Below the pieces are notes generated by a model. That model had not been told where the DNA came from. It worked only from the letters and a program-made list of their open reading frames with translations, and did not search any database. The translations under genes and the position numbers were made by a program. A stretch of DNA of 64,000 nt from Synechococcus sp. CBW1107 (lineage in GTDB: Bacteria; Cyanobacteriota; Cyanobacteriia; PCC-6307; Cyanobiaceae): positions 372,001 through 436,000 of the forward strand of contig NZ_CP064908.1 of the NCBI RefSeq assembly GCF_015841355.1, written 5' to 3'. Shown here in pieces: positions 18,443 to 58,968 of the stretch (positions are counted from its first letter, which is position 1; each line of letters begins with the position of its first letter).

Positions 18443-18488
18443 ATGGGTCGCCTGAGATTCGAACTCAGGACCAATCGGTTAAAAGCCG
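18443..18488 (-). repeat. Left attachment site (partial tRNA-Lys copy)
   Basis: 46 bases identical to 58923-58968, covering the tRNA-Lys discriminator base, acceptor 3' strand, T arm and up to the anticodon loop. The bases beyond 18488 no longer match tRNA, so this is a displaced 3' fragment and not a working tRNA gene. Confidence 0.92.
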
Positions 18489-18695: not shown

Positions 18696-19196
18696 TCAGG
18701 ACGGGCCTGGCTGGCCTCCAAGCGGGAGGTAGAGGCTGAGGGGGGCGTCGAGGTAGGGCTGAAAGCCGTAATGGAGGTAGAAGCTCTTTGCGGCTTCGCC
18801 TTTGGCATCGACGATCAGGGCGTAGCCGCCCACAGACTGACGAACCAGCAGACAGCGCTCAACAGCAAGGCCGACCAGCAGTACGCCAATCCCCTCACCG
18901 CGCCAGCGCAGATCCCGGGCCAGTCGACCCATGCGGAAGCAGGGGATCGGATAGGGCGGCAGAGGGCGGGCGTCCTGGGGCTGGAGGCTGGCCAGACTGA
19001 CTTCGGCCGGAGCCAGGGTGTAGTAGCCGGCAATGGAGCTGGGATCGGACTCCGGCACCAGAACAAAGGTCTGACTGATGCCCCGTCGCATGTTCTGGTG
19101 GGCGTTCTGCTGGAGGAAGCGGTTCAGGGCAGGCTCGCCACTGTCGAAGGCGGAGCGGTTGTGGCGCTTGGGGTCAAGCAGGTGCTCTTCAAACAC
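18696..19196 (-). CDS. GNAT acetyltransferase toxin (TacT-like)
   Basis: GNAT-fold protein of 166 residues paired with a DUF1778 antitoxin, which overlaps its start by 8 bases. Toxins of this group acetylate aminoacyl-tRNA and stop translation. Visible GNAT features: IAGYYTLAPAEVSL (beta strands 2-4), the acetyl-CoA loop LARDLRWRGEGIGVLLVGLA, and AAKSFYLHYGFQP. The N-terminal pattern HNRSAFDSGEPALNRFL is typical of the toxin subfamily. It probably stabilises the island or aborts phage infection. Confidence 0.9.
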   Translation of the reverse strand: MFEEHLLDPKRHNRSAFDSGEPALNRFLQQNAHQNMRRGISQTFVLVPESDPSSIAGYYTLAPAEVSLASLQPQDARPLPPYPIPCFRMGRLARDLRWRGEGIGVLLVGLAVERCLLVRQSVGGYALIVDAKGEAAKSFYLHYGFQPYLDAPLSLYLPLGGQPGPS

Positions 19197-19461
19197 GCTT
19201 GACCCGGGCCTGAACCTCTCTCATGGACTCCTGCAAGGCCTCGTTAGGGCGAAACGGCTGGGCCAGAGCAGTGTGGAAGGCTTCGTAGTCGCGGGTTGAG
19301 AGGGACACCGCTCTATCACGTTGGATGGCCTCTGTTGCCCTCTGCTTGGCGGCGGACCTGACGAAAGCGGCCACAGAGATGCCCTCTAGAGCGGCAGCCA
19401 TTACGAACAGCTGCTTGTCGCTGCTGGATAGCTTGAGATCGAGGCGTTCGGTAGCGGACAT
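19189..19461 (-). CDS. DUF1778 ribbon-helix-helix antitoxin (TacA-like)
   Basis: Antitoxin of 90 residues from ATG 19461. The N-terminal ribbon-helix-helix is SATERLDLKLSSSDKQLFVMAA; the C-terminal part, which wraps the toxin, contains DYEAFHTALAQPFRPNEAL. The frame extends further upstream, but this start gives the standard family N-terminus. A 7-bp inverted repeat 24 bases upstream is the likely operator, so the pair is expected to repress itself. Confidence 0.88.
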   Translation of the reverse strand: MSATERLDLKLSSSDKQLFVMAAALEGISVAAFVRSAAKQRATEAIQRDRAVSLSTRDYEAFHTALAQPFRPNEALQESMREVQARVKRV

Positions 19462-19484
19462 GGGCCCCACGCTCCACGATTTCC

Positions 19485-19509
19485 ATGGTACGGCAAAAAG
19501 CAGTACCAT
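19485..19509. promoter_or_regulatory. Probable TA operator
   Basis: Inverted repeat ATGGTAC - 11 bases - GTACCAT directly upstream of the antitoxin start. It is placed and shaped like ribbon-helix-helix operators of TacA-type antitoxins. Binding is inferred. Confidence 0.6.
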
Positions 19510-19847
19510 CACTGCTGTTGCCTTCTCGGCCCTGCGGAGGTCGGACTCTTTCCGCCCTGGAGCTGTCAACCCTGGTGATGGCGGAGTGCATTGAGACTTC
19601 TGGGGAAGGATCCAGAGCACTCGGCCTGCCATCTCCCTGCCGTCTAGATGGGGGAGCAGTCATCAGAACCCAGGGAGCGCCTCTCACAGGAAGTCCGCTT
19701 GCCAGAGGATTCGGTACAGCAGGGTTCACTCAGAGCACCCCATCGGGGCTGGTGCGGTCCAGAATCTCCAGCAGCAGCTCCAGCACCTGGCGAACAACTG
19801 GTTGCAGCGGACAGTCCACTTTGCAGCCTGCCGCTGAATCTGAGCGT

Positions 19848-20405
19848 TCAGATCGGATACCCATACCTTTGAGCTGCCCTGAACGCTTCGACAACTTCAT
19901 CATCGTCATCGCGTTCATATGTACCTCGTTCACGAATCCGCCCCGTGGGTTGCTGCGGAGGGCTGACGCTATTACCCATGAGCTGCTGCGCGAAGGGCAG
20001 GGCATCCTCGGATTCCTTTTGCTTGAGCTCGGCCAGCCTGGCGATCACTCCCGGCAGAGTGCAGCCGCTCACGTCCAGCCCCTCGATCACTCCAGCATCT
20101 TCAGACAGACGTATGAAAGTCGAGGCATCGGTTGTCGTGATCTTGTGCTTTTCAAGGAAGCCCTTGTAGGCCTCAGTTCCTGAGAGGGCCCTGAGCTTGC
20201 GGAGTGCATCGCCAACAATCAGCGCGGAGGCCAGCTCCAGGTCATGCGGTCTGTTCTTCTTGCTTTTGACGGCACGAAGCGCGGTCAAGGCAACAAGGAC
20301 GAAGGCCTCCTGATCTACTGGCGTTTCGGCTTGCTTGTACAGTCTATAAAGATCGGAGGGCGTGTCCTGCAGCGTGGGGCTGGAGGTCTTTGCAGAATTT
20401 TTCAT
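19848..20405 (-). CDS. Hypothetical island protein
   Basis: Protein of 185 residues from ATG 20405 (an in-frame start also exists at 20438). Helical and charged: ALTALRAVKSKKNRPHDLEL, then LRALSGTEAYKGFLEKH, and a C-terminal acidic patch (YERDDDDEVVEAF). It lies between the toxin-antitoxin pair and the HUH-like gene on the same strand. No family recognised; a DNA-binding or regulatory role would only be a guess. Confidence 0.6.
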   Translation of the reverse strand: MKNSAKTSSPTLQDTPSDLYRLYKQAETPVDQEAFVLVALTALRAVKSKKNRPHDLELASALIVGDALRKLRALSGTEAYKGFLEKHKITTTDASTFIRLSEDAGVIEGLDVSGCTLPGVIARLAELKQKESEDALPFAQQLMGNSVSPPQQPTGRIRERGTYERDDDDEVVEAFRAAQRYGYPI

Positions 20406-20679
20406 AGGATTTATAAAGAACGGGAATAGAGTTGACATATCAACTATACACTATCGAAGGCATATCTCGTGGATCCTGGGGCGGCGGGAGGAAACAATAC
20501 CCAGCCCAGGATTTTTTTATAAAGCGTGTATTAAAAGCCGATAGGGGTTACTGGAGGCCGCCTAGTTGCTCAGCAGCTACGAATGCGGGAAGGTCTGCCT
20601 GGAGTGACTTCACTGGGCTGAGTGGGGCCACTGCCTTCCAGGCGCTACGGCACAGAGGGCACCAGCGAAAGGGATCCAG

Positions 20680-21330
20680 TCAAAACGACGGACTGACGAA
20701 GTTTGAGGCCATCACGTCCAAAGCCATGCGCTGAGAGGAGGTTTCCTTCGTGAGGTACCCGATCAGACCTACGGCATCCGTTACGGAGCAGACATGGGGC
20801 GGGCGCTGCCTGGAGAGGCACTTGGCGTGCTTGGTCATGTAGAGCTTCCACTCAGCGGTCATGCACTCCACGGAGTCGTACTTCCCCAGGGGCTTAGGAA
20901 GGAGCAGGTGACCATGCAGCTGAACATCCTTGCCCTCCTCAACGAAGAACAGCATCGGTGGTGGTGCGGAGCGCCACGCCTGGTTGAGGCGCTGGATGCC
21001 GTAGTGCCGACGGATGATCAGGCTCCGCATGTGCTGGTTGTCGGTCGACATGCTGTCGATGTCGCTCCGGCGGCGCTTGTAGTAGTTGTAGGAGCCCACC
21101 TGATTCCAGGCGCTGGTGGTTGGTCGACGCCTACTCGACGCTGAATATGCAGCGGACTGGCCCTTGCCGTGCCAGCCAGTCTCCTCAGGGGAGCGGGGGT
21201 GATAGCTCACCATGTACTTGGGTTCGAAGCCACCCCTGAGCTGCTCCTCAAGGAACTGCCGCAGCTGGACCTGCTCTTGGTTGGGAGTGCAGCGCGGCGG
21301 CCGCTGGAAGCTAGTGCTATTGGGGATCAT
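20680..21330 (-). CDS. HUH-endonuclease-like replication protein, copy 1
   Basis: Protein of 216 residues. It has a His-x-His pair in QLHGHLLLP (H139, H141) after a hydrophobic strand (PPPMLFFVEEG) and a later Tyr-x-x-Lys in GLIGYLTKET (Y192, K195). That order matches motifs 2 and 3 of HUH single-strand endonucleases (Rep proteins and relatives). A divergent paralogue with the same layout lies at 48352-49029. It is divergent from a UvrD-like helicase, the usual partner of rolling-circle Rep proteins. The family assignment rests on motif order, so call it likely rather than proven; a transposase of the same fold is the alternative. Confidence 0.6.
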   Translation of the reverse strand: MIPNSTSFQRPPRCTPNQEQVQLRQFLEEQLRGGFEPKYMVSYHPRSPEETGWHGKGQSAAYSASSRRRPTTSAWNQVGSYNYYKRRRSDIDSMSTDNQHMRSLIIRRHYGIQRLNQAWRSAPPPMLFFVEEGKDVQLHGHLLLPKPLGKYDSVECMTAEWKLYMTKHAKCLSRQRPPHVCSVTDAVGLIGYLTKETSSQRMALDVMASNFVSPSF

Positions 21331-22307
21331 TGTGAATATGCAGAAAATTTATCTATATACAAAGAAAAGAGTATAGATACTGAGCAAGCGAAGAGAGAAG
21401 GATGCTCGTATCCTCATTCTCCATGCTAGCGCATGGAGAAAACAAATCTATTTTGATAAATATCTAGTGCCCTCATTACATTTCTTTCCTTGCTAGTGAA
21501 TAGCAACGACTCCTCGTGGCTACTGCTATCTACTCTTGCCCTTTACGCACCCCCGCTCGCCGTTGGCTCGCTACCTATAGATGCATATAGCGGCAGACTG
21601 GATCTGCCAATGCAGCGCAAAGCAACCGAGACGGATCACGGAGGGCTGAGTATCTAGCCCACGTACTTGGCGACCCTGCTATCCAAGAGGGATTCGCGCT
21701 GTTCAGAGGGTATTGCTGATGAGCCTCGTTGGCTGGCCTTGTCTTGATGCGAGAAGACCGAGAGCGGCTTGACCAGCGGGATTGCCCGCTGGGATTGAGA
21801 GTCAAGTCATGTGTAGATAGAGCATATCAAAACAGGCAAAGAAAATGTCGGCGGAACCTGTAGTCGCCTAAACACAGTATACACAATTCTGAGATAATAC
21901 AAGGGCAGGGACATTATAAGCATGGCTTGATCGCGCATTGCTTGCCAGGCGCTTCTTCAAGAATATTTCAAGGACAGCATAATCTATCTATTAAAGTTGT
22001 TTGTGTTCTTGCCGTACAGATGCGTGCTGAGATGACGTCGGACTGATTTTTGGAATGTGGAAAATTCCGTGCGCTGGAAAATTGACCGATTCTCGTTTCA
22101 GGGTGCCTTAGGGCCTCCCCCAACTGACTTAATCATTGGTTGAGACCAAGGCGTTGTCCGAGGTGGCTGGTGAACCAGCAGTCGCCTTCAACCTCCGCTG
22201 AATGTTACGCGTTCAGCCACTGGCCGCTGCTTGTGCCCTTGCAGCAGCGCAAGTGTCCATGGAGCAAACCCTGAACAACAACCACATGACTTTCAAGGAG
22301 AATCATC
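21331..22307. other. AT-rich intergenic stretch, candidate origin
   Basis: About 980 bases without a gene between the divergent HUH-like and helicase genes. It is visibly more AT-rich than its surroundings and contains the perfect hairpin at 21417-21440. The ribosome site AAGGAG lies 7 bases before the helicase ATG. Confidence 0.5.
21417..21440. promoter_or_regulatory. Perfect hairpin upstream of the HUH-like gene
   Basis: 10-bp perfect inverted repeat TTCTCCATGC / GCATGGAGAA around a 4-base loop (TAGC), 87 bases upstream of the HUH-like start. Rep proteins of this type often nick in such loops, so it is a candidate nick site; a transcription terminator is possible but lacks a T-run. Confidence 0.45.
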
Positions 22308-24461
22308 ATGACCACTTCACACCACCCGCCTGATGGCGGAGGGACTTTGAGCGAGGAGCAACAGGCGATTGTTCACTCTCGCTCTGACTCATTGCGCGTG
22401 CTGGCTTTTGCCGGTACGGGCAAGACGACCACGCTGCGGGCCTATGCCCGGGAACGACCCCAGCAACGAATGCTGTATCTGGCGTTCAATCGCACGGTGG
22501 CGGCAGAAGCCCGGGAGAGCTTCCCGACCAACGTCACCTGCTCCACGATTCACGCCCTGGCTTACCGGGCTGTGGGGTATCGCTATCGGCACCAGCTGCG
22601 GGGCAGCATCCGCGCCAACCAGGCGGCAATTGCCCTTGGGCTGGACCAGCGCAACCACAAGGAGCTGGTGCTGGCTGATCGTGCTCTCAAGGTGCTGCAG
22701 CATTTCCTCTGCAGCGGCTGCAACGATCTGGCTGAGTTCACCGGGGCGGTCAGTTACCACCAGCGCTACCCCAGGCAGGCTCTGCAGGCTGCATCACGGC
22801 TGTGGGAACTGATGGTGGATCCCACGTCGTCCTGCGTGCCGATGCTGCATGACGGCTACCTGAAGCTGTATCAGCTCTCGAGGCCCCAGCTCAGATTCGA
22901 TGTGATCCTGCTGGATGAAGCCCAGGACACCAATCCCGTCACGCTGAAGATCCTCGCAGATCAGAGCTGCAGCAGGGTGTTCGTAGGGGATCCTCACCAG
23001 CAGATCTATCAGTTCCGCCATGCCACCAACGCCATTGCCAGCGCTGGTCACTGGGACGAGCTGGCCCTGACCGGCAGCTTCCGCTTTGGTGCTGCCATCG
23101 CTGAGGCCGCCAACCACCTGCTGGCCTTGAAAGGGGAGCCTCGCCAGCTGAGGGGTCTGCGCAGCACATCACCACCTGAGACCAGCGCGTTCATTGCCCG
23201 TGGCAATGCCGCGATCTACAAGCAGGCCCTGGCACTGGCCCACCAGGGCAAGCAGACCTACTGGTGCGGCGGAATCGACGGGTACCGCCTCCAGCAGCTG
23301 TTGGATCTCTGCCACCTCAAGCGTGGGGAGCAGTCACAGATCCGTGATCCGTTCATCGCTGCCTTCAAGGGCTACGGGGAACTGTGCAGCTACGCCGAAG
23401 CGCAAGACGTGCGCGACATCAAGGCCTGGTGCCATCTGATCGATCGTCATGACCACTGGCAGGGCATTCCCGAGGAGATCGCTGGGATCAAGCGGATGGC
23501 CGTCAGTTCCATCACGCCCGACGTGATGGCCCTGACCACAGCCCACAAGTCCAAGGGCCTGGAATTCGGCAGCGTGACCCTGGCTGATGACTTCCATGGC
23601 CACGACCTCCTGCATGGAGCCCCCACTGACCTCAAGAACTGGGAGTACGGCCCCCAGCAGGCGCCTGCTCTCTGGGATGAGCAGGGCTATAGAGGCGGGG
23701 TGGTGCTGCCAGAGGAGGAGCTCAACCTGCGCTATGTCGCTTTGACGCGGGCTCAGCAGAGCTGCCGCTCCCCGCAGTGGTCAGCACCGATGTTTGCTGA
23801 CCTGGCCAACTACGTGAAGGACTACCCGAGATTCCTGCTGGTGGATTCCCATGAGGTTCTCAAGCCGAAGCTAACCGCAGGTACCCCATCCGGTCTGAAG
23901 CAGGGTGATGAAGCTGTGATGGTGACTGGGAAGGAAGTGAGCTCTGTGCAACAGGGCCATGACCCTGAGCCTGCCCTGAGCGGTGAATCAGCAGGGACTG
24001 AACCCGTTGCAGAGTTCGCTACTCAAGCTGGCCAGACGATCACGCTGAGCTGGTTTCAGGGCGCCATCGATCCCAGCCACGTCCATGTGGTCACCAGTCA
24101 CTACGAGCGCAGGTATCCGGCCCTGAACTGGGACTGGCTGCTGCTGGAGTTCTCGGAGCTGCGGGTGGTGAGCAGCGATCCTGCTGGTGCTGTTGCGGTC
24201 ATGCTGGGGAAGAACCAGTTGGCCTCAGCGCAGCAACTCGTTGAGCGATTCCTGATGGACGTGGGTCTGGTGCTGCAACCCGACGACGTGGTTGCTCTCC
24301 AGGCTCCCGAGGGAACGAATGGTGAGTGCCCCGTGGAGGAGTTGGTTGAAGCTGACGAGTGCACCAAGGAAGGGGCAACGGGCAGTGAAGCCGTCGAGGA
24401 GCCTGCACGGCGTTCCATGAGGAAGCGGCTGGCCAAGTTCTGGATGCGGGTGGGTCAGTAA
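22308..24461 (+). CDS. UvrD/Rep-like (FBH1-like) DNA helicase
   Basis: Superfamily 1 3'-5' DNA helicase of 717 residues. Motifs in order: Walker A LAFAGTGKTTTL (about 33-43), Ia YLAFNRTVAAEA and TIHALAYRA, motif II LLDEAQDTNP, motif III VGDPHQQIYQFR, motif IV SFRFGAAIA, motif V TAHKSKGLEFGSV, motif VI LRYVALTRAQQ. The last 200 residues are a less conserved extension. ATG 22308 has a clear AAGGAG ribosome site. It is divergent from the HUH-like gene; together they resemble a rolling-circle Rep plus helicase pair. Alternatively it is a general repair or anti-recombination helicase carried by the island. Confidence 0.92.
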   Translation: MTTSHHPPDGGGTLSEEQQAIVHSRSDSLRVLAFAGTGKTTTLRAYARERPQQRMLYLAFNRTVAAEARESFPTNVTCSTIHALAYRAVGYRYRHQLRGSIRANQAAIALGLDQRNHKELVLADRALKVLQHFLCSGCNDLAEFTGAVSYHQRYPRQALQAASRLWELMVDPTSSCVPMLHDGYLKLYQLSRPQLRFDVILLDEAQDTNPVTLKILADQSCSRVFVGDPHQQIYQFRHATNAIASAGHWDELALTGSFRFGAAIAEAANHLLALKGEPRQLRGLRSTSPPETSAFIARGNAAIYKQALALAHQGKQTYWCGGIDGYRLQQLLDLCHLKRGEQSQIRDPFIAAFKGYGELCSYAEAQDVRDIKAWCHLIDRHDHWQGIPEEIAGIKRMAVSSITPDVMALTTAHKSKGLEFGSVTLADDFHGHDLLHGAPTDLKNWEYGPQQAPALWDEQGYRGGVVLPEEELNLRYVALTRAQQSCRSPQWSAPMFADLANYVKDYPRFLLVDSHEVLKPKLTAGTPSGLKQGDEAVMVTGKEVSSVQQGHDPEPALSGESAGTEPVAEFATQAGQTITLSWFQGAIDPSHVHVVTSHYERRYPALNWDWLLLEFSELRVVSSDPAGAVAVMLGKNQLASAQQLVERFLMDVGLVLQPDDVVALQAPEGTNGECPVEELVEADECTKEGATGSEAVEEPARRSMRKRLAKFWMRVGQ

Positions 24462-25267
24462 ATTCGGCAGGCCACGAAAGGGAGTAGATGGAGATATCGG
24501 CAAGTTGGGGCAAGGGCTGCTGATCCTGTTGAGCAGGGCATCAGGTCAAGGACGAGATCAGGACTGCTGTTTGAACGTCCCATGCATTCCTCTCAAAACG
24601 GGAAAAAGAATTTAACGACTGAAGCAGGATTCACAGACCCTCCTGAGGCTGGCAAGCAGTCCGCACGGTCTGACCCATCCCCACAGTGATGCCACTGGCA
24701 GGAGTCTCGGCTTCCCACCCGGCAGCGGGGTTTCAGGGTGTCACGCGGCGCAAGGGCAAGGCGAGTGCGGGAGAACGATCGCAACCTGCTGCTGCCGCTG
24801 AACACCAAGACCATCGGAGCCGCTCCCGCACCCTTGCGCTCGCGTGCTTCATTTCCCCTCGCCGCGGCCGGGATGGGTGGGTCAGGTCACTGCGGCTGAG
24901 CTCATGCCCGCGACTGCGGGGGCGGAGCGCTCGAGGGCGCTGCTCTGAACCGAGCACACTGGTGCGCCTCCCAGGGAGTAAGAGCGTAAGAGACGCCAAA
25001 TCCATTGCAGCAACTGGGATCTTAGCTTCTTACGCTTCTTACGAGGGGACGACGCCTGAGCGCCTGCGTCAGTACTTGAGCCTGCCCGCCACCGGCAGCA
25101 GGTACCAGGCCGGAATGCTGCCCCCAGGCGGCATGCGGTCATCTGGTATCTCCAACAGGTAACTGATCAGATCAAGCTCAGTTGCGGCAGAGGCCCTTCG
25201 GGCACAGGGAGGAGGAGATACCACCGAGCAAACACCATTTGGGCAACCCAGCCCAGAGTGACCGCGG
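24462..25267. other. Non-coding stretch after the helicase gene
   Basis: About 800 bases in which I find no convincing gene. Short frames on both strands look like shadow. The notable content is the GTAAG repeat cluster listed separately. Confidence 0.4.
24978..25046. repeat. GTAAG iteron-like repeats, inverted arrangement
   Basis: Two 8-base units GTAAGAGC, GTAAGAGA on the plus strand (24978-24993), then three units on the minus strand (within 25021-25046, reading CGTAAGAAG, CGTAAGAAG, CTAAGA). The same motif recurs as tandem 8-base units at 54665-54696, beside the primase gene. Binding by a Rep or recombinase protein is inferred. Confidence 0.5.
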
Positions 25268-25500: not shown

Positions 25501-25842
25501 AGCAGCCGGCTGTCGCGTTACGGTATCGCCGGATGTGTGGCGGTCAGTCAGACCCCGTACCATCATGGTGCCTGACCAGCTTCAGACAGAAGGATTGGTT
25601 GATGCTGAAAAAATGAGCGCCTGAACGCGCCACTTCCCCGCGGTGCTGATTACGCTTTTTTGTACCTAACCACTTCGCCGGACAATGTGCTTGGTGACTG
25701 CCCCAACAATCTTCCTGACCTTCGGCTCAGACTGCTTCTTCCATCAATGCTGAGCTAGACAAGAACTTGTTTGCCATTTCCGCAAAAGGCCCTGGATCAT
25801 TCATCAAATCCAGCACTCTATCCTTGATCTCCTGTCGGCTTG
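25501..25842. other. Upstream region of the WD40/chaperone cassette
   Basis: About 340 bases between the IS4 remnant and the first cassette gene, without a supported gene. The cassette promoter should lie here; I cannot point to clear -35/-10 boxes. Confidence 0.35.
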
Positions 25843-27693
25843 ATGCCCGCAACACTGACACCCAGTCAACTTGAGAAATACTCCTCTCGCTTGAAGGGGG
25901 AGAGCTTGCGCCCAGGCCTGCCGATCCGATGGCAGCAGATGAGGGCGATTCGCAAGTTGGCCACTGATGGCTCAAGGAAAGCTGTAAAGGCATTGGCTGA
26001 AGCGGTGGAGCATGAATTAGCACTTGAGGAGCAAACCCGCGACCACTTGATGGTGGTGCTTGGATCCTTACGCCTCTCACTAACCATCGACGCACTTTGC
26101 ACCCAGTGGATGGAGACTGGAGAGGCAGGTGATGGGCTCGCCGGCCTGCTGCTCAAGAGTGGACATGCGCCCGCCGATCTCGCCGAGCGAGCCATGTTCC
26201 TGCTGTTGATCGGTGAGCTGGAGCGCTACGAGGAGCTGGATCTCGATGGCACGCTACTGGCCAAGGCCCTTACCGCTGCCAGTCCAGGAGTGCGCAAACG
26301 CCTGGCAGCAGCAGCGGCGGCGGCGGGCCGTGCTGAATGGCTTCAGGCGATGGAGTATGCGAAACCTCTCGAAGCCTTTAACACCGACGACTGGACCACG
26401 ACAGTGCAGGTGCTGAGGCGAGCGGGCGATCGGCAAGCTCTCTTGCAGTGGGCGATGAAAGCACCACCGCTCCACAGCCGATCACTGCTGCAGGCGATGG
26501 CAGCTGGAACACCACCAGAGGAACAAGACGAGCCGGTGGTGGCGGCCCTGCTGGCTTTCAGCCAAAGCCTTCCAGCAGCAAAGGTGGATGAACTACAGCC
26601 TGATCGGTGCACCCGCACCCTTGAAGGCCATTCCAACTACGTGTACTCAGTGGCGTTGTCAGCGGATGGCCGCTGCCTCGCCTCTGCCAGCGGTGACAAG
26701 ACGATTCGTTTGTGGGACCCGGCCAGCGGCGCCTGCACCCGCACCCTCGAAGGCCATTCGAACAGGGTGTACTCAGTGGCGTTGTCAGCGGATGGCCGCT
26801 GCCTCGCCTCTGCCAGCGGTGACAAGACGATTCGTTTGTGGGACCCGGCCAGCGGCGCCTGCACCAGCATCCTCAAAGGCCATTCGAACAGTGTGTACTC
26901 AGTGGCGTGGTCAGCGGATGGCCGCTGCCTCGCCTCTGGCAGCTCTGACAAGACGATCCGTTTGTGGGACCCGGCCAGCGGCGCCTGCACCGGCACCCTC
27001 AAAGGCCATTCCGAAACTGTGTGGTCAGTGGCGTGGTCAGCGGATGGCCGCTGCCTCGCCTCTGGCAGCTCTGACAAGACGATCCGTTTGTGGGACCCGG
27101 CCAGCGGCGCCTGCACCGGCACCCTCAATGGCCATTCCGAAACTGTGTGGTCAGTGGCGTGGTCAGCGGATGGCCGCTGCCTCGCCTCTGGCAGCTCTGA
27201 CAAGACGATCCGTTTGTGGGACCCGGCCAGCGGCGCCTGCACCGGCACCCTCAATGGCCATTCCGAAACTGTGTGGTCAGTGGCGTGGTCAGCGGATGGC
27301 CGCTGCCTCGCCTCTGGCAGCTCTGACAAGACGATCCGTTTGTGGGACCCGGCCAGCGGTGCCTGCACCCTCAAAGCCCATTCCAGCGTGCGCTCAGTGG
27401 CGTGGTCAGCGGATGGCCGCTGCCTCGCCTCTGGCAGCTGGGATAACACGATCCGGCTCTGGAGAAATGATGTCGCAGAGTTGTTGTTGACCCCGTTGGC
27501 CAGCGTTGATGGCACGTATTGGCAGCTGCTGGCGGCTTACCAACAAGACCAGAGCCAGCAGCCCGAATGGGTGCGAGCCTGGCTCGATTTCATCACCGCC
27601 CTCGGCGCGGTGATCCGTCGCTTTGATGTGGGCGTGGATGAGGCCAGCGTTCAGCTGGATTCCTCACCCTTCGAGATCGAAATCGATGGCTAA
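25843..27693 (+). CDS. WD40 propeller protein 1 of the chaperone cassette
   Basis: Protein of 616 residues from ATG 25843 (TTG 25840 is an alternative). Residues 1-245 are a helical, HEAT-like domain (QLEKYSSRLKGESLRP, WQQMRAIRKLATDGSRKAV). Seven WD40 blades follow (about 262-541), each near 42 residues: GHS-x-x-V-x-SVA-SADGRCLAS-x-S-DKTIRLWDPASGACT. Seven blades make one complete propeller. The last 60 residues (WVRAWLDFITALGAVIRRFDV) are shared with the second WD40 protein at 36229. Blades 4-6 are almost identical at protein and DNA level, implying recent duplication or gene conversion. The Hsp70-like gene starts 17 bases later. I infer a recognition or scaffold role; the ligand is unknown. 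Confidence 0.88.
   Translation: MPATLTPSQLEKYSSRLKGESLRPGLPIRWQQMRAIRKLATDGSRKAVKALAEAVEHELALEEQTRDHLMVVLGSLRLSLTIDALCTQWMETGEAGDGLAGLLLKSGHAPADLAERAMFLLLIGELERYEELDLDGTLLAKALTAASPGVRKRLAAAAAAAGRAEWLQAMEYAKPLEAFNTDDWTTTVQVLRRAGDRQALLQWAMKAPPLHSRSLLQAMAAGTPPEEQDEPVVAALLAFSQSLPAAKVDELQPDRCTRTLEGHSNYVYSVALSADGRCLASASGDKTIRLWDPASGACTRTLEGHSNRVYSVALSADGRCLASASGDKTIRLWDPASGACTSILKGHSNSVYSVAWSADGRCLASGSSDKTIRLWDPASGACTGTLKGHSETVWSVAWSADGRCLASGSSDKTIRLWDPASGACTGTLNGHSETVWSVAWSADGRCLASGSSDKTIRLWDPASGACTGTLNGHSETVWSVAWSADGRCLASGSSDKTIRLWDPASGACTLKAHSSVRSVAWSADGRCLASGSWDNTIRLWRNDVAELLLTPLASVDGTYWQLLAAYQQDQSQQPEWVRAWLDFITALGAVIRRFDVGVDEASVQLDSSPFEIEIDG
26626..27465 (+). repeat. Seven 126-bp WD40 blade repeats
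   Basis: Units begin at 26626, 26752, 26878, 27004, 27130, 27256 and 27376; all are 126 bases long except the sixth (120) and the partial last one. Units 4-6 look almost identical base for base. Changes concentrate at the two codons after GHS (NY, NR, NS, ET, ET, ET) and at the ASASG/ASGSS site. Confidence 0.9.
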
Positions 27694-35611: not shown

Positions 35612-36229
35612 ATGCTGCGACGCTTTCGCCACTGGCTCTCGCGCTTTGCCGATCAGCCACCCCAGCCGCACGAAGCTCCAGGCCATAACAATGCCGCAGC
35701 GCTGCAGCACAAAGAGCTCAACCAAGAGCGTACCCTGCGACTGGCGGCGGAGAGTGAGCTGCAGAAACTGCGGCTCGACCTCCAACAAGCCGAGCAACGG
35801 CTGGCTCAACTCCAGGCTGATCTCCAACGCCAAGACCATCAGCAGCACGATGTACTCAGCGAGTCGCTCAACGCCCACCTCGAGGAGTTACTGAGGCCCC
35901 TGGCAACGCCATTTGCTCAGCTTCTCACCCAGCAGCATCTGATTGAGCAGCAGGGTAAAGAACTGAGCACCAAGGATCTGCTTGCCACCAGCCGCCGCCT
36001 CTGGGAGGGACTCGCACCAGCTGGACTGGAAGCAGTGGAGAGCATCGGATCAGTGGTGGCCTTCGATCCAGATCGTCATCAGCCACTCAGCCAGGCCACG
36101 AGCCTCATCAATGGAGAATCAGTGAGGGTGAGGATTCCGGGAATCACATTCAGGGGGCGAATTCTCAAGACTGCCGCAGTGGAGGATATCGCTCTTGACG
36201 ATGCCAGTGTTGTAGCTACAACGGCTTGA
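35612..36229 (+). CDS. GrpE-like nucleotide exchange factor
   Basis: Protein of 205 residues. Residues about 30-75 are a Gln/Leu-rich coiled coil (QLAQLQADLQRQDHQ). The C-terminal domain matches the GrpE beta domain: SIGSVVAFDPDRHQPL and INGESVRVRIPGITFRGRILKTAAVE. GrpE proteins release ADP from Hsp70; here the natural partner is the Hsp70-like ATPase of the same cassette. The stop overlaps the start of the second WD40 gene by one base. Confidence 0.85.
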   Translation: MLRRFRHWLSRFADQPPQPHEAPGHNNAAALQHKELNQERTLRLAAESELQKLRLDLQQAEQRLAQLQADLQRQDHQQHDVLSESLNAHLEELLRPLATPFAQLLTQQHLIEQQGKELSTKDLLATSRRLWEGLAPAGLEAVESIGSVVAFDPDRHQPLSQATSLINGESVRVRIPGITFRGRILKTAAVEDIALDDASVVATTA

Positions 36230-38421
36230 TGATGAACCCTTCTGCTCGCTCTCCGCTAAATCCTACCCAGATCAAGCGATATGGTTCCCGCTTGCGTGGG
36301 GAGCAGTTCAGGCCGCTGCTCCCCCGGCGCTGGCAGCAGAAGCGGGCAATTCGAAAGCTGGCAAATGATGGCACACCAGATGCTGTGGCTGCTTTGGCTG
36401 AAGGCATTGCAGCAAGCCTTCTCCCCAGCACCACGATTTTTGAGGCCGTAGTTGCTCCTCTGGCTCATATGGCAGCAGAGCTACATTCGCCTTTTGGCGA
36501 GCTGGTGGCTTCCCTCGTAAATAAGATTGTAGCGAAGTACTCCACAAGTAATACACTTCATAGGGGTGCAATTGCTGCTCTGGATAAGTTGGCTCACCAG
36601 CTAGATTCCCCTGCAAGCATTGATCTGCTTTGCCGTCATTGGATTGAATGCGGAGATGCTGAGGATGAATTGGCCAGACTGCTTGTGAATGCCGGCCATG
36701 CACCATCTGATGCTGCCAGTCGAGCACTGTTTTGGATGTTAAGCGGCCAATTGCAGAGATATGAACAGCTGGATCTCGACAGCACTCTCCTGGCCGAGGC
36801 CATGGCTACTGCTAGCCCGGCAGTGCGCAAACGGCTAGCGACCGTGTCGGCGAAGACGGGAAGGACTCAATGGCTAAGAGCGATGCTGAAAACCAAGCAG
36901 CCTCATGCCTTCAGCGATGACGACTGGGCCACATCGGTGAAGGTACTTAAGCAAGCTGGGGATCTTGAAGCCATTTGGAAGTGGGCATTTATGGCACCAC
37001 CAATATATGGGCGGCTGTTGGTTCAAGCGATCCCGGCGGGAATACCACCACCAGCTCGTTATGGAGAAATTCCTATTGCAGAACTGCTGAGTCTTTCACG
37101 GCATCTCCCAGAACAAGCAGACTGGATCGAATTAGAACCAGTTGTTTGCACAGATTACTTACAAGGACATGAGCAGAATGTGATGTTGTTAGCCTGGTCG
37201 CCGGATGGGCTCTGCCTCGCTTCTTGTAGTTCCGACAAGACCATCCGTTTGTGGGACCCAGTCAAAGGAGTCTGTACTAGAACCTTCAAGGGGCATTCCA
37301 TTCCTGTTTCATCGATAGCCTGGTCACCAAATGGGCTCCGTCTTGCTTCCATAGCTAATCGGGGGAAATGGATCAGATTGTGGGACCCATACAGTGGCGT
37401 CTGCACTAATACTCTCAAGGGGCATTCCTCAGGTATATTAACACATGCATGGTCGCCTAATGGCCGCATTCTAGCTTCTGGAAGCATAGATAAGACTATT
37501 CGATTATGGGATCCGGCCCTCGGCGCATGCGCCCATACTCTCGAGGGTCATACTAAGTCGGTGAATTCAGTTGCTTGGTCGCCTGATGGTCGCAGCATTG
37601 CTTCCACCAGCATTGAGTCAACCATACGTTTGTGGAATCCATATACAGGCAAATGCACGCACATCCTCCAGGGACATAAGGGATCGGTGAACAAGATCGC
37701 CTGGTCTCCGGATGGACGCTTCCTTGCCTCTAATGCCTTTGATGGTAAAAGGATTCACATATGGAACCCACTTACAGGAACCTGCTTCCATATCCTTCAG
37801 GGTCATGCTGGTTCGGTAAATTCGATTGCTTGGTCTCCTGATGGACGTTGGCTCGCCTCGTGTAGCACTGATAAGACGATCAGGTTGTGGGATCCACGCA
37901 CAGGTGAATGCTGTAATACGATAAGTGATAATAAATACAATGTAAAGTCAATTTCGTGGTCTCCTGATGGGCGCTATCTGACTTCCATTGAACATGATTA
38001 TGGAAAGTCACAAGTAGGCGACTGGGGATATTCATGGGGGCACTCGGAATACTGTGCCAAGCTATATAGGACTGCAGGGTGGACAGCGGTCAGCGAAATG
38101 TATCTCGGTTCTAATTCAGATGAATCATTTACATGGTCTCCTTCTGGCCGCTGCCTAGCCACTGCAAGCGGAGAAACTATTAAACTGTGGAAAAATAAAA
38201 TAGAGAACCTAATATTTTATCCACTCATGAGCTTCACGCCGAAGGATAGGGAGTTCTTGGCTGACAGTCAGAAAGATTTGGAGCATAATCCGCGTTGGTC
38301 AAGACCCTGGCTGGACTTTATTGTCGCAATATGCCATGTAATTAATCGCTTTGATGTCATTGTTGACGATTTGCCAATTTCTCTTGAGACTTCAAGTTTC
38401 GAAGTAGAAGTTGATGACTGA
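36229..38421 (+). CDS. WD40 propeller protein 2 of the chaperone cassette
   Basis: Protein of 730 residues, paralogue of the 25843 protein. The N-terminal 300 residues have the same helical domain (QIKRYGSRLRGEQFRP, WQQKRAIRKLANDGTPDAV); then about eight WD40 blades, here clearly diverged from one another (for example GHTKSVNSVAWSPDGRSIAS). The C-terminal 60 residues are shared (RPWLDFIVAICHVINRFDV, ending in acidic residues). The start (ATG 36229, or the next ATG at 36232) overlaps the GrpE stop. The coding sequence is visibly more AT-rich than the first WD40 gene, so the two have different histories. Confidence 0.88.
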   Translation: MMNPSARSPLNPTQIKRYGSRLRGEQFRPLLPRRWQQKRAIRKLANDGTPDAVAALAEGIAASLLPSTTIFEAVVAPLAHMAAELHSPFGELVASLVNKIVAKYSTSNTLHRGAIAALDKLAHQLDSPASIDLLCRHWIECGDAEDELARLLVNAGHAPSDAASRALFWMLSGQLQRYEQLDLDSTLLAEAMATASPAVRKRLATVSAKTGRTQWLRAMLKTKQPHAFSDDDWATSVKVLKQAGDLEAIWKWAFMAPPIYGRLLVQAIPAGIPPPARYGEIPIAELLSLSRHLPEQADWIELEPVVCTDYLQGHEQNVMLLAWSPDGLCLASCSSDKTIRLWDPVKGVCTRTFKGHSIPVSSIAWSPNGLRLASIANRGKWIRLWDPYSGVCTNTLKGHSSGILTHAWSPNGRILASGSIDKTIRLWDPALGACAHTLEGHTKSVNSVAWSPDGRSIASTSIESTIRLWNPYTGKCTHILQGHKGSVNKIAWSPDGRFLASNAFDGKRIHIWNPLTGTCFHILQGHAGSVNSIAWSPDGRWLASCSTDKTIRLWDPRTGECCNTISDNKYNVKSISWSPDGRYLTSIEHDYGKSQVGDWGYSWGHSEYCAKLYRTAGWTAVSEMYLGSNSDESFTWSPSGRCLATASGETIKLWKNKIENLIFYPLMSFTPKDREFLADSQKDLEHNPRWSRPWLDFIVAICHVINRFDVIVDDLPISLETSSFEVEVDD

Positions 38422-41986: not shown

Positions 41987-42997
41987 ATGCAACTCCAACT
42001 ACTCAGCACGCCATTTAATCGCGACTACATCCCAAGCGAACACACGCGGCTGACTACCAACTTTGCCAACTTATCCCAGCATCCAGCTACACGCATCGAG
42101 CAGATTGAGAAGACGCTGGGATTGATCAACGAACGCTTCAACAAGAACCTGGGAACATTCGGCGAGCACAACGAACCTCGCCATCGAATCACCCTTGATG
42201 TGATCACAGTTATCGCCAAGCCAGGCCCATCGGCATCTGGAGGGTTTCCTATTTCGGAGATGCTTAGATGCCGCATTCATGATCAACAACGGCAGAGATG
42301 GTTGCAGGGGCCCATCGGCTTTTGCTATTCCTCTTTCGTACGCGACTACGACTTCAATGTTCTGCTGCCGCGAATTCGCAACGGAGAAGCCAGCCAACAA
42401 GAAGTCAGCAGCTTCGGAGATCTTCACGGAGTTCTGTATCAGCTTCAATTTTCTCACCTCTACTCTCAAGGCGTTCTGAAAGAACCAGCCCTGATCGCCA
42501 TCAGCGTGGCCCATCAGCATCGCTATCAAAGCACGACAGCAACGATTGATGGTCTTGGAATGATCTATGCCCCTCAGGGAGAAGAGTCAATCACATCTCG
42601 CTATTTTGGCCGCATGGGACTTGACGTGAATTACGCCCTGGCACCCGGCTCAAAAGCTCCACTAGCCATTTATCATCAACCAAACGATCTCCAGAGCCGA
42701 TCAAAGCTGCAGCTGTGTGCTCTTGTTGCAGTCATGGACACGTTTCAACGCATCTATCGGCCAGAGATTTATGCCAGTCACTCAATCCCAGATGACACGT
42801 TCGTCGCAGATCTCAACAACCAAGACTACGAGCCTGCTCCAATCTTATATGACCGATCCGAGCGTGACCAGGTGCATGCGCCCAGGCAGGCGCAGTATGC
42901 CTTTGATCAATTTCTCATGCCCTGGGCCTCCGAGCTTAATGAACTCCTGCAGGATCACCATGCCCTACTGGCATCGCGTCCACCCGTCTTTCCCTGA
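41987..42997 (+). CDS. mesX: DUF1852 protein, MesX-like (methionine synthesis)
   Basis: Protein of 336 residues matching the DUF1852/MesX family along its whole length: RLTTNFANLS, GFCYSSFVRDYDFNVLLPRI, FGDLHGVLY, YFGRMGLDVNYALAPGSKAPLA, MDTFQRIYRPEIYAS, ILYDRSERDQV. MesX is the putative oxygenase partner of MesD, a folate-independent methionine synthase core protein. No MesD or MetE-like gene lies in the window. The gene stands alone between an IS3 element and an IS5 element and looks more AT-rich than neighbours, so it is probably mobile cargo. It might work with a partner elsewhere in the genome. Confidence 0.85.
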   Translation: MQLQLLSTPFNRDYIPSEHTRLTTNFANLSQHPATRIEQIEKTLGLINERFNKNLGTFGEHNEPRHRITLDVITVIAKPGPSASGGFPISEMLRCRIHDQQRQRWLQGPIGFCYSSFVRDYDFNVLLPRIRNGEASQQEVSSFGDLHGVLYQLQFSHLYSQGVLKEPALIAISVAHQHRYQSTTATIDGLGMIYAPQGEESITSRYFGRMGLDVNYALAPGSKAPLAIYHQPNDLQSRSKLQLCALVAVMDTFQRIYRPEIYASHSIPDDTFVADLNNQDYEPAPILYDRSERDQVHAPRQAQYAFDQFLMPWASELNELLQDHHALLASRPPVFP

Positions 42998-48351: not shown

Positions 48352-49029
48352 TCATTGCATCGCCAACGGCCTGACCAACGATCCTCCACCTCTTCTGAGC
48401 CGAGGCCCTTGGCAACCCTGTTGAATGAACACTGACAGCTCAAAGTCCAGCGGGGTGTAGGTACCGGATGCCTGCTTGATGATGTAGCTCATCACCCCCA
48501 CAGGCTCTGTAATCAGCCTGACGTCAATCGTGCGGTCACGATCCAGGGCACGAATGGCCGTGCGGAAGTGGCCATTGAATTCAAGGTTCAGTTCACCAAC
48601 GCTGTCGTGTTGGGCAGGTGGTTGCGGGATCAGCAGGTGTGTGTGAAATCGGCCAGCTTCAGAGCTGCGCTCATGGCTGAAGTACAGCGGTGGTGCCTGA
48701 GCCACCCTGGTTTGCTGGATGCGGTTGTAGCCCCACACGCGCTTGAGCATGACGTTCTTGAAGTGCCTGGCCTCCCGGGTAACGTCGGCATAATCCCGCT
48801 GTTGAGGGGACCAGTGCCAAGTGATGATGTACTTGAGCTGGACGCCATGGCGCAGCTCCAGCAGCAGGTGACTAAGCAGGGAGAAGGCCTCGGGGGTGTA
48901 GCTCTGCCAGTGATACTCCAGCTCTTGAAGACGGCCAGGGGGAAGGCTGAGGTGCTCGAGTGCGGCCTTGACGCCTGAGTATTCGCGGGCAGCTGCACTG
49001 GTTGGAATTGGACAGGGGGATGTGATCAT
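48352..49029 (-). CDS. HUH-endonuclease-like replication protein, copy 2
   Basis: Protein of 225 residues, diverged paralogue of the 20680-21330 protein. It has the His-x-His pair in RFHTHLLIPQ (H129, H131) and Tyr-x-x-Lys in GVMSYIIKQAS (Y182, K185). Shared context includes LKYIITWHW / PKYMVSYHP, a run aligning VMLKRVWGYNRIQQTRVAQAPPL with the copy-1 segment, and PPAQHDSVGELNLEF / PLGKYDSVECMTAEW. The motif order fits HUH Rep or relaxase-like nickases. Two diverged copies in one island suggest two element generations or a two-component system. Confidence 0.6.
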   Translation of the reverse strand: MITSPCPIPTSAAAREYSGVKAALEHLSLPPGRLQELEYHWQSYTPEAFSLLSHLLLELRHGVQLKYIITWHWSPQQRDYADVTREARHFKNVMLKRVWGYNRIQQTRVAQAPPLYFSHERSSEAGRFHTHLLIPQPPAQHDSVGELNLEFNGHFRTAIRALDRDRTIDVRLITEPVGVMSYIIKQASGTYTPLDFELSVFIQQGCQGPRLRRGGGSLVRPLAMQ

Positions 49030-50051
49030 GGCGATTTAATGCGAAGGGAATGTGATGCGGTTGTTGAGTGAAGCGGGTTGGCCTTGATGATGCTCTGAAT
49101 TATTCCGCTATGTGTATATGTTCAACTGGTTGAGACAGACGGCGAGTCGGCGCTGAGGACACTCTGGTTATTAAACTATTTATAAAAGTTCAGCGAGACG
49201 AGCGAACGTGGGAGGGCATTCCCTCAGAGATACTGCACATTGCTTCATCGGCCATGCATGACTGGAGCATTCGATCTTTGGGAGTCGAGGAATTCCCGTG
49301 TGTGTAGATACTGTTTAACTAGCAGGCATGATTCCTCACGGCCGCTGGTTGCTCTTCAGGGGGATGCGTCCTTTCTGGCCAGCCCTCTTAACTGGTCAAA
49401 AATCCTGGACTTGATTGCGGTTATGTGTGCTGTGGTATGGCTTGAGTTGCTGAATGCGGGGTATCGGAGAAGGTTCAGGTGCTGAAGAGAAGTACGGCTT
49501 GAATCAGGGTGTTGGCTGGTTTAGGTGTTGGGGAGATGTTGATGTGCGATGTCGCGCGAGGCGGTGTCAGCACATCTCCAGAATATAGCAGATAGGATCC
49601 AGAATCAAGATGACTGGTTATCAGGCCTTGTTTCCAGAATGTTATCCAGGGTTTCGCAGATGCTGCCCTGTTTGCTGCTGACTTGATCGGGTTGGCTTGC
49701 GCACCAGGGCTGGTTTGCTGTCGTAACTCCTCATCCGATTGTCCGGGTGTGCAAATGATCCCCGTGAGGCTTCCCCCCTTCCTCCATTCCCCTTTTGGCT
49801 GATATCCCCGTGCTGGACTGGGCTTTGGTGGGGGTAACAAGGGAGGAATTTGTTTCTCCCTTTTCCCCCCTTCGCCCGGACACAGCAGAAGGGAGCGCGC
49901 AGGATTCCTCAGCATGCGCGGCCGCACAAGGGCTCACGCGAGCTGGCCCGCCACGGAGATGTGACACCCGGGGAACTTCTGCAGGGCCGAAGTTCTGGGC
50001 CAGCCCTTGCTGCTGGCCGCGCTGGTGCTTCGGGTCCTGCGCTGCTGCCCG
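49030..50051. other. Long intergenic stretch before ardC
   Basis: About 1 kb without a supported gene. Its first 200 bases, upstream of HUH copy 2, are AT-rich. A weak GAGGG-CATT-CCCTC hairpin lies near 49213. Short frames in the second half look like chance. Confidence 0.4.
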
Positions 50052-51056
50052 ATGGGTACCACCAAAATCTCAACCCGCTCTCGTGCCACCTCCAGGTCGA
50101 AATCCGGGCATTCTGTTCTGGCAACCCCAGCTGAGAAGCTGGTGGAGTCCCTGATCCAACTGCTCGAGTCCGGCACCGCACCCTGGAGGCGTGAGTGGGA
50201 TTCCAGTGGTGGTGGTCACCACGTCAACCTGCTCTCTGGCCATCGTTACCGGGGCGCCAACCCGATCCTGCTCACGCTGGGGATGCACCTGCGGGGATCG
50301 GCACTGCCCTACTGGTGCGGGTTCGCTGAGGCGAAGGCGCTGGGGATCTTCCCTCGCAAGGGTAGCCAGGGGATCCGGATCCTCAGGCCCCAGGTCAACC
50401 ACTCAGGTCCCGTGGGGTCGGATACGTCGGCCCCCTCGGATGCGCCAACTGGATCCAGCTGTGTAGGCGGTACTCCTGCAGAGCGGACTTGGGTCAGTTT
50501 CCGCCCCGTGGTGGTCTTCAACGCGGCTGATCTCGATGGAGATGGCCTGGGGGATCTGATCTCAGAGCGGCAGCGGGAGGCGGGGTTGATCGCCAAGCCT
50601 GAACCGGAACGCCTCGCTGCTGCGGAAGCCGTGCTCAGTGGCTGGGCGGTTCCTGTTTCCTACGGAGGGGAGCGTGCCTGTTACTTCCCCCAGATCGATC
50701 GGATCCAGCTTCCCGAGCGCCAGGCATTCCACTCAGCTGCAGGTTTCTATGCCACTTTGGCGCATGAAGCAATCCACTCCACCGGTCACCCCAGCCGGCT
50801 CAAGCGAGATCTGAGGGGTCGTATGGGCTCGATGGCCTATGCCCGCGAGGAACTAGTGGCGGAGCTCGGGGCAGTGCTCCTGGGTGACCGGTTGGAGATC
50901 GGCAGTGCGATGGAGAACCACGCTGCCTACCTGGGGCACTGGATCAATCTCCTCAAGGAAAACCCGCAGGTGCTGTTCCATGTGCTGGGTGAGGCCAGGC
51001 GGGCGGTTGATCTGATTTCGCCGGAAGCGAAGCCAGAAAGCACAGAACCTGACTGA
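50052..51056 (+). CDS. ardC: ArdC-type antirestriction protein
   Basis: Protein of 334 residues from ATG 50052 (frame open to 50007). The N-terminal part is the ssDNA-binding ArdC domain: TAPWRREW, LSGHRYRGANPILLTL, KGSQGIRILRP. The C-terminal part is a zinc-metallopeptidase-like domain with LAHEAIHSTGH (HExxH) and a downstream ELVAELGAVLLG. ArdC proteins protect incoming single-stranded DNA of mobile elements from restriction. It lies in the replication half of the island. There is an insertion between the two domains (GSDTSAPSDAPTG), low in complexity. Confidence 0.9.
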   Translation: MGTTKISTRSRATSRSKSGHSVLATPAEKLVESLIQLLESGTAPWRREWDSSGGGHHVNLLSGHRYRGANPILLTLGMHLRGSALPYWCGFAEAKALGIFPRKGSQGIRILRPQVNHSGPVGSDTSAPSDAPTGSSCVGGTPAERTWVSFRPVVVFNAADLDGDGLGDLISERQREAGLIAKPEPERLAAAEAVLSGWAVPVSYGGERACYFPQIDRIQLPERQAFHSAAGFYATLAHEAIHSTGHPSRLKRDLRGRMGSMAYAREELVAELGAVLLGDRLEIGSAMENHAAYLGHWINLLKENPQVLFHVLGEARRAVDLISPEAKPESTEPD

Positions 51057-57318: not shown

Positions 57319-58728
57319 TCACTCCACTGGCTTCCTCACTGACGATTGGGCAGCCAGCGGCGCCATGACGGGGGTGGCTTCGTCATGGGCCTTCTGGCGT
57401 GCCATCCCCCGCTCTCGCTGGACCGCGGTCAGTTCCGCGAGGTAGCGCTTGGCATGTATGGATTCGCTGTGGCCCATGCTGGCCGCCTTCAGGGTCGTCG
57501 ACCAGGTGGTGGTCTCCCGGGCCCTGATCGCCCAGGCATGGCGAAGGTCGTAGCACTTGCAGCGGCCCCTGATCGCTCGGGGCTGGGGCTGACCGGGGAC
57601 GTGACGGGGCTGGTGATACCCGAACAGCTTGATGGGCAGCTCCCTGTCCTCTCGGCCCCTGTTGCGCAGCCAGTGGACGACGACACGACCGAGCTCGGTG
57701 TTGTTCCAGAACTGGAGGCCCCCGTCAGCGGAATCGGCCGTCTTGATCGGGTGGCGCCGCCGGAGCGCAGCCAACATGGCCTTCGAGCGGGGCAAGTCCA
57801 TCAACCGGTAACGATCCAGCCACTCCACCGGCAAGGGCAACGCGAAACGGTGCCCGGTCTTGGTGGAGGAGCCACCCGATTCCTCGAACACACTGATTTC
57901 TATAAAGGTGGGGTTTTCCACGCCCTGACCTGGCAACCGCTCAATGTGCCAGACCTCATGGGGGCGTAACCCATAGGTGGCGATCATCGCCATCACCCAT
58001 CCCCGGAGGGGGTCCACCGACTGCAGTTGATCCAACCAGGACTGGATATCGCTGGTGCGAGGGATGAAGCGCGGTGCAGGGGCTTTCGTGCGGCCTGCTG
58101 CCGACTTCAGGCCCTCGAGCTTGCTGCACAGGGCTGGGGTGGCGATGGCCACTCCTTTCTTGGCCAGGTACCTGACCATCTGGATGACACCGTAAAAACC
58201 GCTGGTGTTGTAGTTCCTTTGGATCAGCAGGGCCCTGGGGTCCGCCCGGTTGGCCTGGATCGAGGCGGGGGTATTCAGGCAGAACAGCTCGAGATGCTCG
58301 GTCCGCGCGATCTGTTCGTCAGGGAAGGACCGGCCGAAATATCCCTTGTTCGAGAAGCAGACGAAGGGGTTGCGATCCCTGGCTTTTGGGCCGCCAGGGG
58401 CAATGTCCGCCAGGATCAGCCGGCGAATTTCCCCCCAGGTCTGCCCGGAGGTCCCCGATGGCGTGCCGGATGAGCCCGAGAGCCGCGTCCAGTCGAGGCC
58501 ATCGCCTCCTGCCTTCAGGTTTGTCTGGGCATCCAGCAGGAGCTGGGTCAGCGCGAACACCGACTCGTCATCGTCAGCGCTGAAGCCCTTCGCGGTCTGG
58601 GTCCTCCCTCCGCGCTGGGTCTCATAAACAGTGAGGTGGGGGCTCTCGCTGCGCACCCGGAACCGGTAGGGGCATCCCGCGAGACGCAGCCGCTCGAGCG
58701 ATTGAACCAGGACGCTGCGCGCTCGCAT
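57319..58728 (-). CDS. int: Tyrosine recombinase (island integrase)
   Basis: Site-specific recombinase of 469 residues. The N-terminal core-binding part is followed by the catalytic domain: Arg in TYGLRPHEVW, the second box as CYDLRHAWAIR (Tyr where most families have His), His in SMGHSESIHAKR, and the nucleophile Tyr in KRYLAEL. It is transcribed away from the adjacent intact tRNA-Lys, the usual layout for an integrase that targets the tRNA 3' end. The perfect repeats at both ends show which site it uses. Confidence 0.9.
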   Translation of the reverse strand: MRARSVLVQSLERLRLAGCPYRFRVRSESPHLTVYETQRGGRTQTAKGFSADDDESVFALTQLLLDAQTNLKAGGDGLDWTRLSGSSGTPSGTSGQTWGEIRRLILADIAPGGPKARDRNPFVCFSNKGYFGRSFPDEQIARTEHLELFCLNTPASIQANRADPRALLIQRNYNTSGFYGVIQMVRYLAKKGVAIATPALCSKLEGLKSAAGRTKAPAPRFIPRTSDIQSWLDQLQSVDPLRGWVMAMIATYGLRPHEVWHIERLPGQGVENPTFIEISVFEESGGSSTKTGHRFALPLPVEWLDRYRLMDLPRSKAMLAALRRRHPIKTADSADGGLQFWNNTELGRVVVHWLRNRGREDRELPIKLFGYHQPRHVPGQPQPRAIRGRCKCYDLRHAWAIRARETTTWSTTLKAASMGHSESIHAKRYLAELTAVQRERGMARQKAHDEATPVMAPLAAQSSVRKPVE

Positions 58729-58922: not shown

Positions 58923-58968
58923 ATGGGTCGCCTGAGATTCGAACTCAGGACCAATCGGTTAAAAGCCG
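58923..58968 (-). repeat. Right attachment site within tRNA-Lys
   Basis: 46 bases identical to 18443-18488, overlapping the 3' two thirds of tRNA-Lys. Marks the right island boundary and the crossover region. Confidence 0.92.

Follow-up and report, generated by a model that had tools for sequence, protein, structure and literature searches.

Introduction

Rolling-circle replicons of the pMV158 and CRESS type use a single-tyrosine HUH initiator, and the parvovirus/adeno-associated virus (AAV) Rep (NS1) nuclease domain, in which the tyrosine follows the HUH motif, is fused to a superfamily 3 (SF3) helicase. In the accessible part of PMC13107129, the archaeal provirus SNJ2 is described as joining an integrase, the replication initiator Rep-Arvir and a hairpin origin in one excisable circle, and Rep-Arvir is placed there outside the HUH superfamily. 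In a picocyanobacterial integrase element, the tyrosine integrase lies close to tRNA-Phe or tRNA-Cys and is often joined by a serine recombinase (PMC10187409); the accessible text of that paper contains neither 'HUH' nor 'replication initiat'. Our literature search, made mostly among papers free of subscription, found no description of picocyanobacterial integrative elements with an HUH initiator. To our knowledge, how small Synechococcus-type integrative elements are copied and spread is largely open. Here we describe a stretch of 64,000 nucleotides (the window; contig C1, positions 372001-436000) from the single-contig 3.2-Mb genome of Synechococcus sp. CBW1107 (G000), in which an island at a tRNA-Lys gene encodes a 216-residue HUH-like protein divergently from a helicase. 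We propose that this protein nicks the excised circle of a tRNA-Lys integrative element and so drives its replication, a reading that we regard as probable.

The locus resembles SNJ2 in combining an integrase, a putative replication initiator and a hairpin, here a candidate origin read from the sequence, and differs from it in not being archaeal and in the type of initiator, as far as the accessible text on SNJ2 goes. With the pMV158/CRESS-type replicons it shares a single-tyrosine HUH protein; it differs in being chromosome-integrated and in having no relative among the plasmid records searched. The likeness to AAV Rep/NS1 lies in the order of the motifs, the predicted fold and the sole profile match in the PDB, all described below. 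Unlike AAV Rep/NS1, the proteins found here are stand-alone (~180-280 residues) and have no fused SF3 helicase, and a separate, divergent superfamily 1 (SF1) helicase gene lies beside them at 3 of 20 loci.

The 216-residue protein has the residues of an HUH nuclease

An earlier note on this DNA had described a gene with the motifs HGH and YLTK that diverges from a helicase gene around an AT-rich region with a perfect hairpin. This arrangement was confirmed. Both open reading frames (ORFs) are open and 977 bp lie between them:

20680-21330, minus strand: HUH endonuclease-like gene, 216 residues, with HxH at residues 139-141 (HGH) and YxxK at residues 192-195 (YLTK); identified from the family alignment, the AlphaFold2 model and VIA-align
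21331-22307: AT-rich intergenic region, candidate origin, with an inner block 88% conserved in Synechococcus sp. Cruz-7E5 (G003), a congener
21417-21440: perfect hairpin TTCTCCATGC-GCTA-GCATGGAGAA (HUH-sense strand), 10-bp stem and 4-base loop, candidate nick or binding site
22308-24461, plus strand: SF1 UvrD-like helicase gene, 717 residues, the divergent partner, with homologues 82% identical in G003 and 48% identical in G128

Relatives were sought in 400 genomes of the family Cyanobiaceae, to which the strain belongs, 386 genomes sampled across the phylum, 72,556 plasmid records and 50,697 phage records. A four-sequence profile found relatives of the HUH protein in 18 of the 400 family genomes, spread over 11 of 59 genera, and in three of the phylum-sampled genomes, all three from the same family. 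These 18 genomes hold 20 HUH loci, or 21 when the IMG/VR contig L060, on which one family member sits, is added. G003 is the sole congener that also carries the 216-residue gene, which is present once per genome in both G000 and G003. The 216-residue protein had no relatives among the plasmid records, and the phage records gave no match either. Among viral contigs, queries A1 and P0003 returned nothing and query A2 returned one contig.

Alignment of 17 family members leaves H139, H141, Y192 and K195 as the sole invariant columns; H44, P124, E131, D205 and S209 are near-invariant. The two histidines and the tyrosine that the earlier note had singled out are thus conserved, together with the lysine. 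In both the protein and the alignment the tyrosine follows the HUH motif, and HxH then YxxK is the motif order of Rep proteins. The 216-residue protein alone matched no HUH family in Pfam, NCBIfam or PHROGs, and its best Pfam match, DUF7819 (E 0.02), was judged to be due to chance. Six of the 17 members match PHROG 3584, 'replication initiation protein' (best E 1.2e-5), over the HUH-to-tyrosine region in the two members shown, and two match PF23343, REP_ORF2-G2P (best E 0.015). The elements here differ from PHROG 3584 in that the window's own copies lack a match to it and in being chromosomal, with integrases. When the family profile was searched against the PDB at E values up to 10, the one match was the parvovirus NS1 nuclease 4kw3 (E 0.067), aligned across its HxH.

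Structure prediction points the same way. The AlphaFold2 model of the 216-residue protein has a predicted local distance difference test score (pLDDT) of 67.7 and a predicted template modelling score of 0.69; taken in blocks of ten, residues 141-190 reach a pLDDT of 85-94. In VIA-align, AAV Rep was the top match at Z 9.4, with a root-mean-square deviation of 3.0-3.4 over 118-137 residues and ~12% identity in the alignment. It was followed by parvovirus NS1 (Z 7.7), the unrelated Thg1 (Z 7.3) and RepB (Z 5.9), so that the HUH match exceeds unrelated folds by ~2 Z units. A second model, of the marine-branch member on L060, aligned best with SIRV1 ORF119 (Z 9.2) and AAV Rep (Z 8.5), with ribosomal proteins just below, and also with a Helitron transposase (Z 7.3). 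The predicted models of two members therefore have HUH proteins as their best VIA-align matches, and the fold check proposed in the earlier note came out in favour of an HUH fold. Collectively, these results leave little doubt in our minds that the 216-residue protein is an HUH nuclease, the fold part of this assignment resting on predicted models.

The divergent helicase and the intergenic hairpin

The helicase has the motifs AGTGKTT, DEAQD, TAHKSKGLE and RYVALTRA and matches Pfam UvrD-helicase PF00580 (E 8.3e-17) and PHROG 1967, DNA helicase (9.3e-76). It scores far below the equivalog cut-offs, at 34 bits against 911 for pcrA and 37 bits against 965-1144 for UvrD-type models. Judged by its sequence, it is an SF1 helicase distant from PcrA, UvrD and Rep orthologues; the earlier assignment to the UvrD/PcrA type holds at the level of the superfamily and not at that of the orthologues. 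Helicase relatives occur in 1,675 plasmid records, of which 1,206 are predicted to be conjugative, and in 100 phage records. The divergent pair of HUH and helicase genes is found in G000, G003 and G128, and the congener G007 retains a broken helicase gene without an HUH gene. Between G000 and G003, the ratios of non-synonymous to synonymous substitution rates are 0.33 for the HUH gene, 0.25 for the helicase gene and 0.28 for the neighbouring ORF196, which indicates purifying selection.

The intergenic region has a GC content of 48.6%, compared with 62.9% for the window, and only 9 of 631 equal-sized windows are as AT-rich. A block of ~226 bp is 88% conserved between G000 and G003, compared with 48-63% for three other measured stretches. 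The hairpin itself is an exact run of 24 identical columns with flanks of 57% and 63% identity. It occurs once in each of these two genomes, 110-112 bp before the HUH start, and its pattern was absent from nine other genomes searched. Dinucleotide shuffling of the region, done 300 times, gave an equally long stem in 3 cases; the whole window has 16 matches to such a stem, several of them overlapping. Candidate roles for the hairpin are nick site, operator and binding site.

The pair lies in a genomic island at a tRNA-Lys gene

The HUH and helicase genes are part of an island with the following features:

18443-18488: left attachment (att) site, attL, an exact 46-bp repeat of the tRNA-Lys 3' end
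18489-58922: genomic island, absent in four of the eight other genomes of the genus
18696-19632, minus strand: GNAT/TacA-like toxin-antitoxin pair at the left end of the island
19848-20438, minus strand: ORF196, co-directional with the HUH gene and downstream of it; homologues adjoin the HUH gene in G003 and G323
48352-49029, minus strand: second HUH-family gene, 225 residues, 27% identical, in the same island
50007-51056, plus strand: ArdC-like anti-restriction protein, encoded close to the second HUH gene
57319-58728, minus strand: divergent tyrosine recombinase P0004, 469 residues, adjoining tRNA-Lys; identified by hhalign and motifs
58923-58968: attR, an exact 46-bp repeat inside tRNA-Lys (58924-58995, minus strand)

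Counting one copy of the repeat, the island is 40,480 bp long. In relatives, the two flanks of the window adjoin each other. Among the eight congeners compared (G001-G008), the site is empty in G001, G002, G003 and G008, where the flanks overlap within the 46-bp repeat. G004, G005 and G007 have different DNA at the tRNA-Lys site, and in G006 the flanks are on separate contigs. The locus thus has the border direct repeat of a tRNA 3' end, the empty site and the integrase gene at one end that mark a tRNA island. Its contents include both HUH genes, the helicase, ArdC, the TacA/GNAT pair and several insertion sequences. The recombinase has no Pfam or NCBIfam match; by hhalign it aligns with two integrases (probability 89, E 2e-6), and it has the motifs GLRPHE, DLRH and MGHS...Y. 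A Pfam integrase search of G000 had placed no integrase in the island, and the reading that the integrase was lost was dropped once this divergent gene was recognised. G007 keeps a remnant of the recombinase N-terminus, 71% identical, at the same place. The earlier idea of an ancestor plasmid fused in the island found no support, as there is no HUH relative in the plasmid records and the DNA is a tRNA-Lys island: it has att repeats and a divergent recombinase, and its site is empty in relatives.

HUH genes accompany integrases in small elements elsewhere

A tyrosine integrase lies at most 5 kb from the HUH gene at 14 of the 21 loci. This tally records presence and is not an independent search, because the integrase queries were taken from the same loci. 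At two further loci, the second HUH gene of the window and L056, the integrase is 7-9 kb away. No integrase was found at L055 and L046, and L053 and L041 stop at contig borders. G003 has a second HUH gene on contig C4, ~7 kb from an integrase that itself lies ~200 bp from tRNA-Pro, and at L047 the integrase is beside tRNA-Ser.

Elements of the marine branch measure ~3.2-5.0 kb between repeat starts and contain an integrase, the HUH gene and one or two small ORFs that by eye are ribbon-helix-helix (RHH)-like; several also have a separate Y1 transposase. At L042, L045, L043 and L054 the flanking direct repeats are 234-292 bp long and include the start of a gene whose motif suggests mpg (3-methyladenine DNA glycosylase), next to a presumed pyrB. 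Elements at the 5' part of this gene appear to supply it with a new start. At L051 and L060 the attachment site is the 3' end of a gene that we take to be uvrA. L051 also has an array of several repeats of the uvrA-like 3' end together with two integrases, an apparent tandem accretion of elements. The contig L060 measures 3,506 bp and its ends repeat exactly over 127 bp; its genes are an integrase, the HUH gene, a small ORF that is RHH-like by eye and a methyltransferase, and no other replication gene was recognised on it. We did not accept the terminal repeat as proof of a circle, because the same assembly could come from an integrated element flanked by identical att repeats. The contigs G276:C10 and G148:C92 were considered as plasmids and rejected, because they have no terminal repeat and align with elements on long chromosomal contigs.

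Two loci recall the element of PMC10187409 as its accessible text describes it: L049 has an integrase and a serine recombinase, L052 has an integrase on a tRNA-Cys stretch, and both have an HUH gene. The sites here differ (tRNA-Lys, mpg and uvrA).

A proposed role in replicating the excised circle, and the alternatives

We favour an integrative element replicated by its own HUH protein because the family's only invariant residues are catalytic, its predicted fold is HUH-like, the island has att repeats, empty sites and a recombinase-like gene, and integrases accompany the family elsewhere. The PHROG 3584 matches, the NS1 match in the PDB, the gene set of L060, the pair in G000, G003 and G128, the purifying selection and the 24-bp hairpin block also count for this reading. 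The following course of events is our inference from these observations. Acting on the 46-bp repeats, the recombinase would release the island as a circle. One strand of this circle would then be nicked by the HUH protein; the probable place is the intergenic region, perhaps its hairpin. The protein would stay on the 5' end through Y192 and leave a 3' OH for rolling-circle synthesis, while the divergent helicase would most likely unwind ahead of the fork. From their coordinates, the HUH gene, ORF196, TacA, GNAT and the recombinase would all run in the same direction in the excised circle. The replication function that the earlier note had proposed for the pair stays plausible.

Several observations weigh against this reading. 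The HUH fold is a prediction only, because the Foldseek E-values are weak (best 0.11 for the 216-residue protein and 0.02 for the L060 member); the top Foldseek match of the L060 model is a designed protein, and both models are of moderate confidence (pLDDT 67.7 and 68.5, respectively). A profile of eight marine HUH members matched no HUH chain in the PDB and hit only an NDH subunit (E 0.2). The helicase accompanies the HUH gene at just 3 of 20 loci, and none of the 1,675 plasmid records with helicase relatives matches the 216-residue protein. The hairpin was seen in two genomes only, and in G128 the 900 bp preceding the HUH gene lack any perfect stem of at least 7 bp. The recombinase is 36 kb from the 216-residue HUH gene and too divergent for Pfam, and the island, with its several insertion sequences, may have lost its mobility.

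These points leave room for other roles of the HUH protein. It could be a mobilisation nickase (relaxase) acting at an origin of transfer, with a helper conjugation system moving the excised island and replication being secondary, which we consider rather unlikely. ArdC, which is typical of conjugative DNA entry, is encoded near the second HUH gene and also near the HUH gene of G182; most of the helicase's plasmid relatives are predicted to be conjugative, and integrative mobilisable elements pirate conjugation systems (accessible part of PMC5704250). The order of HxH before YxxK and a fold closest to replication nucleases speak against a relaxase, as does the lack of a coupling protein or type IV secretion system gene among the part of the island ORFs that was scanned against profile libraries. 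A phage satellite, in which phage infection is followed by amplification of the island by the HUH protein for packaging, would fit the family member on an IMG/VR contig and PHROG 3584 being a phage protein family. We hold it to be improbable, as the phage records gave no match and no capsid or packaging gene was found among the island ORFs scanned.

A transposase-like HUH protein (Y1/RAYT, IS91 or Helitron-like) that itself moves the 5.3-kb block 19729-25087 is slightly less probable again. This block is common to G000 and G003 with differing flanks, and an HUH protein with an SF1 helicase resembles Helitrons, as does the L060 relative in its alignment with a Helitron transposase; the hairpin and helicase would fit such a unit. 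Yet each genome has one copy, several marine elements have a separate Y1 transposase, and no defined ends or terminal repeats of the block were found. A search for direct repeats in 12000-34000 gave only an array in a WD40-repeat gene, so that no att pair was found around the block alone. Least probable of all, by a small margin, is an inactive replicon relic whose genes are kept for another chromosomal function: the insertion sequences of the island and the broken helicase of G007 are in keeping with decay, but purifying selection and invariant catalytic residues are not. We therefore retain replication of the excised circle by the HUH protein as the preferred explanation.

Other features of the island

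Downstream of the helicase gene lies repeat R (24462-25120), a multi-copy intergenic sequence with a long imperfect hairpin that is present in eight of nine genomes of the genus. It is beside tRNA-Pro at three loci and near tyrosine integrases at two, and contig C1 of G003 has three same-strand copies. A non-coding RNA and an att site are both candidates only; the att-site reading was weighed without being adopted. A part of ~42 bp (24639-24684) is dispersed many times in the genus and overlaps the sole Rfam match, a sub-threshold match to the CPEB3 ribozyme (24623-24683, minus strand, E 0.05). A 33-bp sequence (25086-25118) is dispersed through several genus genomes. WD40-repeat proteins are encoded at 25840-27693, with closely similar 126-bp repeats, and at 36226-38421, near HSP70-, AAA- and GrpE-like island genes. 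The island also encodes a MesX-like putative oxygenase (41987-42997) and, adjoining the recombinase, a 643-residue protein without a family match (54790-56721).

Implications

The loci together may represent an undescribed picocyanobacterial superfamily of integrative elements with their own HUH rolling-circle initiator, a proposal we put forward tentatively and with somewhat more doubt than belief. It would range from minimal elements of ~3.4 kb (integrase, HUH protein and small RHH proteins) at mpg and uvrA, both DNA-repair genes, to tRNA islands of 40 kb, with one freshwater branch having a split, divergent HUH protein and SF1 helicase around a hairpin origin. The family adds a divergent bacterial branch of HUH proteins whose predicted fold is nearest to parvovirus Rep. 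An HUH initiator common to elements at several attachment sites would give a direct handle on excised circles, nicking and copy number.

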